Shown here piece after piece: positions 44,809 to 51,164 of a DNA stretch of 64,000 nucleotides (the first letter of the stretch is position 1; every line of letters starts with the position of its first letter). Source of the DNA: Candidatus Latescibacterota bacterium (GTDB lineage Bacteria; Krumholzibacteriota; Krumholzibacteriia; G020349025); contig CP070763.1 in NCBI GenBank assembly GCA_020349025.1, positions 3,248,225 through 3,312,224 on the forward strand, in the 5' to 3' direction. The position numbers and the translations under genes are program-made. The notes below the pieces were generated by a model, which was given only the letters and a program-made list of their open reading frames with translations, made no database searches and was not told where the DNA came from.

Positions 44809-47901
<3,093 letters not shown>

Positions 47902-47917: not shown

Positions 47918-49399
47918 TCACTCCACTTCGCCGTGCAGGAACCAGCGGCGGCGGCGGCGGTCGTCGTAGATCCAGAGGAGCCGACCGCTGCGCGTGCGCA
48001 CGAAGTAGTAGGCGCGCTCCAGCGCGCGCATCCACCAACCGCCCGCGACAACGTGCGGCCCCGTGATCTCATCGACCGGGCCTTCCCGCGGCCCCATGAC
48101 GAGCCAGCCATCCGGCTCGTGTCGTGGCCGCGCCGGCAGCTCGAGCGGCTTCGGACGAATGCGTCGGACGAGAGGGGGCACGATGACGGCGCGTGGCCGT
48201 GCGGCCTCGAGCTTCGGGAGCGGCTCCCAGCTGAAGCGCGCCTCGGGGAGATGCCCCTCGCGTCGCCTGGCGCGCATCACCGCAGCGTCGCCGAGCTCGG
48301 CACGCACACGCGCCAAGGCCCGGTTCGCGGCGCGCAGATCGCGACGCCGCTGCGCGAACAGCGTCAGCTGCTCATGCTTCGCTCGGGCCGGAGTGATCTC
48401 GACCTCGATTTCTTCCACGCCCGATTCGAGGCGTCGCGACTCGAGTCGGAGCCGCACGAGCCTGAGGATCTGCGCCAGGTCGCGCGTCCCATCCGCGGGC
48501 CGGAGTGCGTGCTCTGCGTGCGTCCGATCTTCGAAACGCAGTCGCAGCTGCAGCCCCGCCAAAACCGCGTCACCCTGTTGCAGCGTGTCGAGGAGAGGCC
48601 GCAGGAGCTGCTCGATCACGAGCAGGAGGCGCGGCACCTGCGCCTCCGGGTAGTCGAGCAGAAGAGAACTCCGCAGCGGCTCTTCGGGCGCTTCCCCTTG
48701 GACCGGAGACCAGAGATCTCCGCGGAGCTTGCGGTGCAGCGCGTGCGCCTCGGCTCCGAAGCGCTCCAGAACACCGTTCGCGGGCAGCTCGATGAAATCG
48801 CCGAGCGTGACGATCCCGAGCCGCGCTAGCGCATCGCGCAGGCTGGGATCGACACCCAACCTCTCGAGCGCGACCTCGCGGACGTGCTGCGTCTCCTCGG
48901 CAGCGTTGGTGAAGACGCGAATGCCGTTGCCGGAACGCGCCGCCGCGTAGGTCCCCCAACGTGAGAAGCCGACGACGACACGCGAAGCGAAGCCGTGCCG
49001 GTCGAGGAGCCAGGAGATTCGAGCAGCCCAGGCCTCGAAGGAGGGGAAGAGTCGCATGATCCCGCGCGCCTGCAACCAGAACACACCCGGCCTGTCACGC
49101 GAAGCCTCGACGTCGGGTGTGAAGGAGCCGAGGTGCTGCGCGATGGCATCGACCTCACGCTCGATTTCCCCCTCCGACACCACACCGGCACGCAAATCAC
49201 CCACGAGCGAGAGCGCCACGGCATAGCGCATTCCGGGCAGGACGCGTGAGCTGCGTGCGCGCTCGTTGACCCACAGGATCACGCCCTGCGGTTTGTCGCG
49301 ATCGACCACGGCGACCGGGAGCGGGCGCCATTCCTCGTGCCGGCGCAGCAGGAGCTGCAACGGCAGCTCCGGGAGATCAACACAAGCCGTCCGGCCCAT
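47918..49399 (-). CDS. imuB: ImuB, catalytically inactive Y-family polymerase-like mutasome protein
   Basis: A protein of 493 aa. ATG 49399 has GGAGG 6 nt upstream. The Y-family fold is recognisable ('[19 protein letters not shown]', '[19 protein letters not shown]', a thumb HhH '[19 protein letters not shown]'), but the second and third catalytic acidic residues of DinB are not in place, as in other ImuB proteins. Residues 344-348 QLTLF form a canonical beta-clamp-binding motif. Family knowledge: ImuB bridges the beta clamp and DnaE2. Overlaps imuA by 23 nt. Confidence 0.93.
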
Positions 49400-50030
49400 G
49401 ACAGACCTCCGCATAGCGCCAACCGGGACCGCGACACTTGTCCTTGAGAACGTGGAGCTCCCAGGCGAAACGGTTGAAGGAGCTGCGCCAGACGACGCCA
49501 TCGCAGCGCAGCGAGATCAGCGAGCCGAGCGAGCCTGCGTCACACGGCTTGCGCGTCAAGAAGAGGAGTGTGGCTTGATGCTTCTTCACCAGACCGGAGA
49601 AGCGCGCCTGCATCGGCATCGGGACGTTCGCCCGCGCTCCCAGGTCGAGAACGACGAGGCCAAAGGCACCGGAACGCAGAAGCTCGTCGGCTGCGCGAGC
49701 CCCAGCCTGGATTGCAGTAGCTCTGATGACCGGCAACGCCTCGAGATCGATGCCGCTGTCCGCCAGATCGGGTGGAAAGAAGGTCGCGTCCCAGGCCGTG
49801 ACCCACGCCGCGGGCTCGGCGCGTCGTTGCGCCTCGTAGAGGAGGGCTGCAGCTGCGGAGAGGCTGGGCGTGGTACCCGCGCTCGAGATCTCCACGAGAC
49901 GACCACGCAGTGTCTGCAGACACCACCCGCGCCCGGTGCTCGGCCCCGCGTCGCCGCGTTGAATGGAGCGATGTTGGTTCAGCAACGGCCGGATGTCGAG
50001 CGCGGCCGTGCCGAGCGAGAAGTCGTTCAT
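49377..50030 (-). CDS. imuA: ImuA-like RecA-fold SOS mutagenesis protein
   Basis: A protein of 217 aa. It has the compact RecA-like layout of ImuA/SulA-like proteins encoded before imuB: 'GRLVEISSAGTTPSLSAAAALL' (degenerate P-loop region, about 43-64) and 'AAWVTAWDATFFPPDLADSG'. 'FGLVVLDLGARANVPMPMQA' occupies the Walker-B position, followed by 'LSLISLRCDG'-type strands near the end. The Walker A lysine is missing, so ATP hydrolysis is unlikely. Middle gene between lexA (130 nt upstream) and imuB (23 nt overlap); expected to join the ImuB-DnaE2 mutasome. Confidence 0.85.
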   Translation of the reverse strand: MNDFSLGTAALDIRPLLNQHRSIQRGDAGPSTGRGWCLQTLRGRLVEISSAGTTPSLSAAAALLYEAQRRAEPAAWVTAWDATFFPPDLADSGIDLEALPVIRATAIQAGARAADELLRSGAFGLVVLDLGARANVPMPMQARFSGLVKKHQATLLFLTRKPCDAGSLGSLISLRCDGVVWRSSFNRFAWELHVLKDKCRGPGWRYAEVCHGPDGLC

Positions 50031-50160: not shown

Positions 50161-50766
50161 TCAATCCAGATGGCGCCGCACCTCGACGACCCTGCCGAGA
50201 ATGGTGCACTCCCCTCCAGGAACGATGCGCGCGAAGTCGGGGTTTTCCGGATGCAGCTCGACGCGTCCTTTGCGGATACGAAGTCGCTTCACCGTGGCTT
50301 CCTCCTCCACCAGGGCAACGACGATCTCTCCCGACTGCGCTGTCGGCTGCGAACGCACGATGACCAGATCTCCAGCCAAGATGCCGGCACCCGTCATGCT
50401 GTCCCCTCGAACTCGCAGCGCAAAGAGCTTGCCGACACGACGCGCCTCGACCGCAACGTAGCCCTGGGGGTCTTCGATCGCAGCCTGAAGACCACCCGCC
50501 TGCACCTGCCCCAGGACCGGAACCATCCGCGAGCGTGGTGCGCCGGCGCGTACCGGCAACCCATACCCGCGTGCTCTTCCCGGCGCATGCGTCAGGCGCC
50601 CATCTGCAACCAGACGCTCGAGGTGTTCTCGCGCCGTTTGCACGGCTCGAAACCCGAGAGCCCCCTGGACCTCTCGCACGGTCGGAGGGTTCCCGGCCAG
50701 AAGGCGCTTGGTGACGTAGCGCAGCACTCGTTCCCGGGTCCGCCCGGGTGGCGTCGCCGGCGACAT
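50161..50766 (-). CDS. lexA: LexA repressor, SOS regulator
   Basis: A protein of 201 aa, a normal LexA length. Winged-helix N-terminus with 'PTVREVQGALGFRAVQTARE' (28-47); cleavage site Ala90-Gly91 in VLGQVQAGG; catalytic Ser123 in RGDSM and Lys160 in EATVKRL, the peptidase S24 dyad. ATG 50766 is chosen. It lies 6-7 nt after the -10 element, so the transcript would be leaderless, and longer in-frame extensions run through the promoter. RecA-stimulated self-cleavage would release the imuA-imuB-dnaE2 genes behind it as well as lexA itself. Confidence 0.95.
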   Translation of the reverse strand: MSPATPPGRTRERVLRYVTKRLLAGNPPTVREVQGALGFRAVQTAREHLERLVADGRLTHAPGRARGYGLPVRAGAPRSRMVPVLGQVQAGGLQAAIEDPQGYVAVEARRVGKLFALRVRGDSMTGAGILAGDLVIVRSQPTAQSGEIVVALVEEEATVKRLRIRKGRVELHPENPDFARIVPGGECTILGRVVEVRRHLD

Positions 50767-50772
50767 GCGCGA

Positions 50773-50801
50773 ACCATACCAGACAAAAGTCTGGTTTGCA
50801 A
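50773..50801 (-). promoter_or_regulatory. lexA/mutasome promoter, probably leaderless
   Basis: Minus strand: TTGCAA (50801-50796), exactly 17 bp, TATGGT (50778-50773), then 6 nt to the lexA ATG. The start point expected 6-7 nt after the -10 coincides with the ATG, implying a leaderless mRNA. Confidence 0.65.
50778..50795. promoter_or_regulatory. LexA box candidate: perfect 18-bp palindrome
   Basis: ACCAGAC-AAAA-GTCTGGT, two perfect 7-bp arms around AAAA. It fills the promoter spacer between -35 and -10, so binding must block RNA polymerase. The sequence differs from the E. coli (CTGT-N8-ACAG), Gram-positive (CGAAC-N4-GTTCG) and alphaproteobacterial (GTTC-N7-GTTC) boxes. Confidence 0.75.
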
Positions 50802-50954: not shown

Positions 50955-51164
50955 CTAGCCACCAACCAGAGTCGTGATCGCGGGGTAGAGGACATACTTC
51001 ACGAACGCGGCGGCGAAGACGGCCGAGGTGACCACCAAGCCTACGAAGGTCCAATCCAGCGCCACACCTCGGCGCTGCGCCGCTCGAGCGGCCCCGCCAT
51101 CAAGAACTCGGAGGTGGTTTCGTGATGGTTCACTTGACGGTGAAGGCTTCCTCAGCGTGCTCAT
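50955..51164 (-). CDS. Small single-helix membrane protein
   Basis: A protein of 69 aa from ATG 51164, preceded by a strong GGGGGAG. About 37 polar residues ('LRKPSPSSEPSRNHLRVLDG') precede one transmembrane helix ('WTFVGLVVTSAVFAAAFVKY') and a short tail. No family recognised. It has its own terminator and sits between the lexA promoter and the VOC gene; a strong ribosome-binding site and terminator argue that it is real. Confidence 0.6.
   Translation of the reverse strand: MSTLRKPSPSSEPSRNHLRVLDGGAARAAQRRGVALDWTFVGLVVTSAVFAAAFVKYVLYPAITTLVGG

Follow-up and report, generated by a model that had tools for sequence, protein, structure and literature searches.

A lexA gene whose promoter spacer is filled by a perfect palindrome raises two questions, namely, which protein reads the palindrome and how many genes it brings under control. 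Here, we analyzed the palindrome in a 64,000-nucleotide stretch of DNA (the window), in the genome to which the window belongs, and at orthologous loci elsewhere. The palindrome very likely serves as operator for the adjacent LexA-family repressor, which would control itself and imuA-imuB-dnaE2 and be dedicated to this cassette. The locus contains the following features.

50796 to 50801, minus strand: -35 element TTGCAA (4/6 consensus), from the sequence, directly 5' of the operator
50778 to 50795, minus strand: predicted LexA operator ACCAGACTTTTGTCTGGT, i.e., ACCAGAC-N4-GTCTGGT, a perfect 7+7 palindrome with a 4-nt center, from sequence, conservation and covariation
50773 to 50778, minus strand: -10 element TATGGT (4/6 consensus), from the sequence, its first base being the last of the operator
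50161 to 50766, minus strand: lexA, 201 aa (Peptidase_S24, LexA_DNA_bind, TIGR00498)
49377 to 50030, minus strand: imuA, 217 aa, RecA/SulA-like mutasome protein (weak NF033429 and RecA matches), 130 nt after lexA
47918 to 49399, minus strand: imuB, Y-family-like (Pfam IMS), overlapping the end of imuA by 23 nt, with the start at 49399 preferred
44809 to 47901, minus strand: dnaE2 (imuC), error-prone DNA polymerase (NF004225, 1327.7 bits), 16 nt after imuB

Read 5' to 3' on the minus strand, the promoter is TTGCAA-ACCAGACTTTTGTCTGG-TATGGT-TCGCGC-ATG, and the 18-bp palindrome spans all 17 spacer bases plus the first T of TATGGT, which is common to the palindrome and the -10 element. The lexA ATG (50766-50764) lies 6 nt 3' of the -10 element and 11 nt 3' of the operator, at the expected +1. 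A preliminary description of this DNA had given the same geometry, and its coordinates and spacing proved exact when read again. Both promoter hexamers are weak (4/6 and 4/6), and a consensus promoter scan does not call the site. The palindrome is not improbable by chance, since 64 kb should contain about 4 perfect 7+7 inverted repeats with a 4-nt gap (64000/4^7) and the box pattern, when up to 3 mismatches are allowed, is about as frequent in the 64-kb window as chance predicts (3 matches versus 2.6 expected); the evidence therefore lies in its promoter position and its conservation.

The lexA product has a PF01726 N-terminal winged helix-turn-helix and a PF00717 C-terminal S24 domain, both above the cut-offs, and reaches 139.3 bits against the LexA equivalog model TIGR00498 (cut-off of 110.95). 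Its cleavage site A90-G91 and residues Ser123 and Lys160 align with A84-G85, S119 and K156 of Escherichia coli LexA; A90, G91 and S123 are present in 100 of 100 orthologues and K160 in 99, with a gap in the remaining one. Downstream of the operator, imuA, imuB and dnaE2 are codirectional with lexA (gaps of 130, -23 and 16 nt). The 130-nt gap between lexA and imuA has room for a second promoter, but neither a second promoter nor a terminator-like site was found there. The order lexA-imuA-imuB-dnaE2 is the same in most orthologous loci, and imuA follows lexA in most. In two single-contig genomes (G014 and G022; L120 and L121), the lexA orthologue matches in two separate pieces only, which suggests a frame break or an insertion in these sequences.

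To follow the box beyond the window, we took 100 LexA orthologues of 48 to 66% identity from titled records and whole genomes. The record titles cover about ten phyla, including Verrucomicrobia, Nitrospirales, Myxococcota, Hydrogenedentota, Binatia, Gemmatimonadetes, Planctomycetota, Zixibacteria, Desulfobacterales and Acidobacteria, although these are mostly titles of metagenome-assembled genomes and not all of them are reliable, as two loci with identical upstream sequences (L064 and L067) carry different titles. Within 3 mismatches, the box was present in 39 of 46 upstream regions of a first set compared to 8 of 1,088 control windows, and the reversed pattern was present in none of the 46. 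A matrix built from 41 sites then recovered 43 of 54 held-out upstream regions versus 1 of 451 control windows (p ~1e-50), and several of the held-out misses resemble further variants (GGTATACATTTGTATACT and AACACTCATTTGAGTGTT). About 14 of the 100 orthologues, some with altered helices, had no box recognizable by this detection, which is biased toward the consensus. The main operator form in the clade has CAGAC or CATAC half-sites with conserved outer ACC and GGT over 18 bp. The promoter geometry is kept as well: a hexamer matching TTGACA at 4 or more of 6 positions abuts the box in 53 of 86 boxed promoters, at an offset of 0 or 1 in 51, and the bases just 3' of the box are A in 29 and T in 25 of 41 sites of the first set.

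The distance from the box to the start codon separates the promoters into two groups: 20 with no more than 16 nt (13 of them with exactly 11 nt) and 61 with more. A Shine-Dalgarno-like motif occurs in 1 of the 20 short-leader promoters compared to 54 of the 61 long-leader promoters (p = 8e-12), which supports leaderless transcripts in the short-leader group, to which the window promoter belongs with its 11 nt. The lexA mRNA had been proposed to start at the ATG itself, and the conserved 11-nt spacing and lack of a Shine-Dalgarno motif make this likely. The message would instead have a leader if transcription came from farther upstream or if lexA started at an upstream TTG. The reading frame is indeed open upstream to a TTG at 51054, and the weak hexamers count against a leaderless start, but the exact 11-nt distance in 13 promoters and the near absence of Shine-Dalgarno motifs speak against both versions. 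An upstream start would also place the operator inside the transcript, and the M-S-P protein start at the ATG is common to many LexA orthologues. We regard a message with a leader as unlikely.

If the LexA of the window were a general SOS regulator, its box would be expected in front of recA, uvrA and other SOS genes, as the preliminary description had anticipated. A genome scan did not bear this out. In the genome of the window (3.84 Mb in one contig, estimated to be 86.6% complete), pattern searches found the box once and no site with 1 mismatch. Seven sites have 2 mismatches, none of them at a repair-gene promoter; one of these, ACCAGAGCGATGTCGGGT (1393791), was considered as a recA operator and rejected because it lies 2.6 kb before recA, outside its promoter. 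The 3-mismatch matches listed reach 2.62 Mb, and the stricter core CAKAC-N4-GTMTG was therefore also searched, yielding only two other sites, both in coding sequence. Among the matches listed, none within 3 mismatches is located immediately upstream of recA. Since the genome is 86.6% complete, an extra site in the missing sequence is possible, but with one site only, we rejected a genome-wide SOS regulon for this organism, and the single box points to a dedicated mutagenesis repressor instead of a general SOS regulator.

Support for a general regulon comes from other genomes. Among 32 genomes scanned for extra sites, of which the best were read, a genome recorded as Myxococcota (G065) has the box 38 nt before cinA-thpR-recA (L155 and L184), and in three genomes, it stands at the start of DUF763 genes (L160, L162 and L166). 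The regulon can thus be larger in other genomes, and the boxes on DUF763 genes suggest a DNA damage role for this uncharacterized family. Against this, the own genome has its single site, with none just before recA, and carries a second LexA, and we consider it improbable that the box there belongs to a genome-wide SOS regulon under the window LexA. Single cases of the box before a mechanosensitive channel gene (L151) and a cytosine methylase gene (L158) are not claimed as targets.

Where imuA or dnaE2 stands apart from lexA, a box of its own is usual. Separate dnaE2 genes with the box at their start were found in six genomes (L156, L159, L164, L165, L170 and L171), and a separate imuA with its own box was found in one (L152). 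In five of the six, the box contains the start codon of dnaE2 (L191 to L195), so that the operator overlaps the first codons (M-Y-G, M-Y-C or M-S-G), and four of these five have a TATACC element 6 nt before the ATG. A clear dnaE2 was present in nine of the genomes searched; of these, G087 has it behind imuB, G072 has it without a box, and in G085, LexA is divergent and the box is missing.

The second lexA in the own genome (G000:C1:172899) encodes a product that is 36% identical to the window LexA, and the window-type box was looked for before this gene and is absent. The gene directly follows that of a third DnaE-type polymerase (G000:C1:172893-176651, L222), of 1,005 aa and 31% identical to the window DnaE2. 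In this class, a direct repeat, TTTCG-N6-TTTCG with a period of 11, often stands just before the -10 element of the second lexA (L105, L109 to L111, L113, L114 and L048; L291 and L293 to L305). The pattern TTTCG-N6-TTTCG-NNTANG has 16 matches in 58 genomes and none when reversed; most lie before lexA and three before a PHP/DnaE-like polymerase gene. The repeat is likely the operator of the second LexA, of a direct-repeat type.

Covariation is the nearest available substitute for a gel shift in linking the box to the window LexA. We computed mutual information with average-product correction for 68 residue columns and 7 half-site positions (476 pairs) in the 86 boxed orthologues, and the top two pairs were E47 with base 2 and A41 with base 5. 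At residue 47, E goes with C, Q with A and R with G at base 2, while at residue 41, A goes with G and S with T at base 5. These residues are the equivalents of E. coli LexA Glu45 and Ser39, which are among the five DNA-contacting residues of that protein (PMC3091678). In a likelihood ratio test of correlated evolution, on a single FastTree estimate from which the recognition-helix columns were left out, both pairs were significant (p = 4e-6 and 3e-3, respectively), and the crossed control pairs were not (p = 0.055 and 0.20).

Such covariation ties the box to the clade of the window LexA rather than to another protein. Since further lexA paralogues are frequent in genomes with this lexA, it could be argued that the palindrome is bound by the second LexA or by an unrelated repressor and that the proximity of lexA is incidental. 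However, the box tracks this LexA clade across phyla and changes with its own recognition helix, the second lexA of the own genome lacks the box, and second lexA genes in this class have a different, direct-repeat element, all of which leaves such a binder very improbable. A chance palindrome without function has a negligible probability, because the expected frequency of such repeats and the chance-level matches in the window, which would allow it, are outweighed by the conservation of the box at this promoter position in held-out regions, which refutes chance, short of a systematic error. The palindrome is thus best read as the operator of the adjacent LexA, as the preliminary description had proposed; held-out conservation, covariation at the contact residues and boxes before separate imuA and dnaE2 genes favor this assignment, and its proposal that the box controls lexA-imuA-imuB-dnaE2 is supported as well.

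A dedicated LexA of this kind has a counterpart in Pseudomonas putida, where LexA2 controls its own lexA2-imuA-imuB-dnaE2 operon (PMC5261740) through the box GTAC-N4-GTRC (PMC5544203), and the imuA-imuB-dnaE2 cassette is the sole LexA target in several organisms (PMC3323433). As in P. putida, a second lexA heads the operon here, although in our case this is predicted from sequence alone, and at this level, the genome holds two LexAs and one operator. The boxes share the AC-N4-GT core, and two orthologues have operators that are exactly GTAC-N4-GTAC (L080 and L246, CCGTACATTTGTACGG). In contrast, the window operator is CAGAC-N4-GTCTG with longer conserved arms, so that only the core matches, and the orthologues here are mostly from other phyla. 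Since the operator differs from GTAC-N4-GTRC, we regard the window LexA as a functional analogue of P. putida LexA2 and do not claim membership. P. putida LexA2 or close relatives were not found on plasmids, where the best LexA was <47% identical, and plasmid ImuB matches were alphaproteobacterial or from Streptomyces. To our knowledge, no leaderless promoter has been described for P. putida LexA2.

The Gram-positive box CGAAC-N4-GTTCG and the cyanobacterial box RGTACNNNDGTWCB (PMC3091678) have the same AC-N4-GT center and half-site spacing, but their half-sites (CGAAC and AGTAC) differ from ACCAGAC, and unlike the window box, they govern general SOS regulons that include recA. The window recognition helix, FRAVQTAREHL, is more like that of E. 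coli (FRSPNAAEEHL). E. coli LexA belongs to the same family and has the same cleavage and catalytic residues, and positions 39 and 45 appear to read the operator in both, but its box, CTGT-N8-ACAG, has a different half-site and spacing. The preliminary description had called the box different from known LexA motifs, but it is not entirely so, since its AC-N4-GT core also occurs in the P. putida LexA2, cyanobacterial and Gram-positive boxes. No report of ACCAGAC-N4-GTCTGGT was found in the open-access literature, and an earlier description is possible in subscription papers, which were outside this scope.

We infer the following course of regulation. A LexA dimer bound in the spacer between the -35 and -10 elements would block RNA polymerase, so that lexA and the imuA-imuB-dnaE2 mutasome are shut off by their own repressor. 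Upon DNA damage, RecA filaments would trigger self-cleavage of LexA at Ala90-Gly91 through Ser123 and Lys160, LexA would be released from the operator, and the operon would be expressed, probably as an mRNA starting at the lexA ATG. Specificity would come from the recognition helix, with residue 47 reading base 2 and residue 41 reading base 5 of the half-site A-C-C-A-G-A-C, in a cell that also has a second LexA with a presumably different operator.

The literature counts at least 17 LexA motifs (PMC8565304). We lean toward the view that ACCAKAC-N4-GTMTGGT represents an undescribed operator class, spread over about ten phyla with its promoter geometry kept, that serves a dedicated mutasome repressor, in which a two-residue code (39 and 45 in E. 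coli numbering) has changed with the operator several times and a subset of the self-repressed transcripts is leaderless. Because the clade offers many operator variants, with the helix altered correspondingly at two contact positions, LexA operator change becomes testable residue by residue in gel shift experiments. For the organism, the mutagenesis operon would stand outside the general SOS regulon, and its message may be leaderless. For the family, our findings suggest that in little-studied phyla, the repressor and promoter geometry stay with a damage-inducible mutagenesis operon as it travels or persists.
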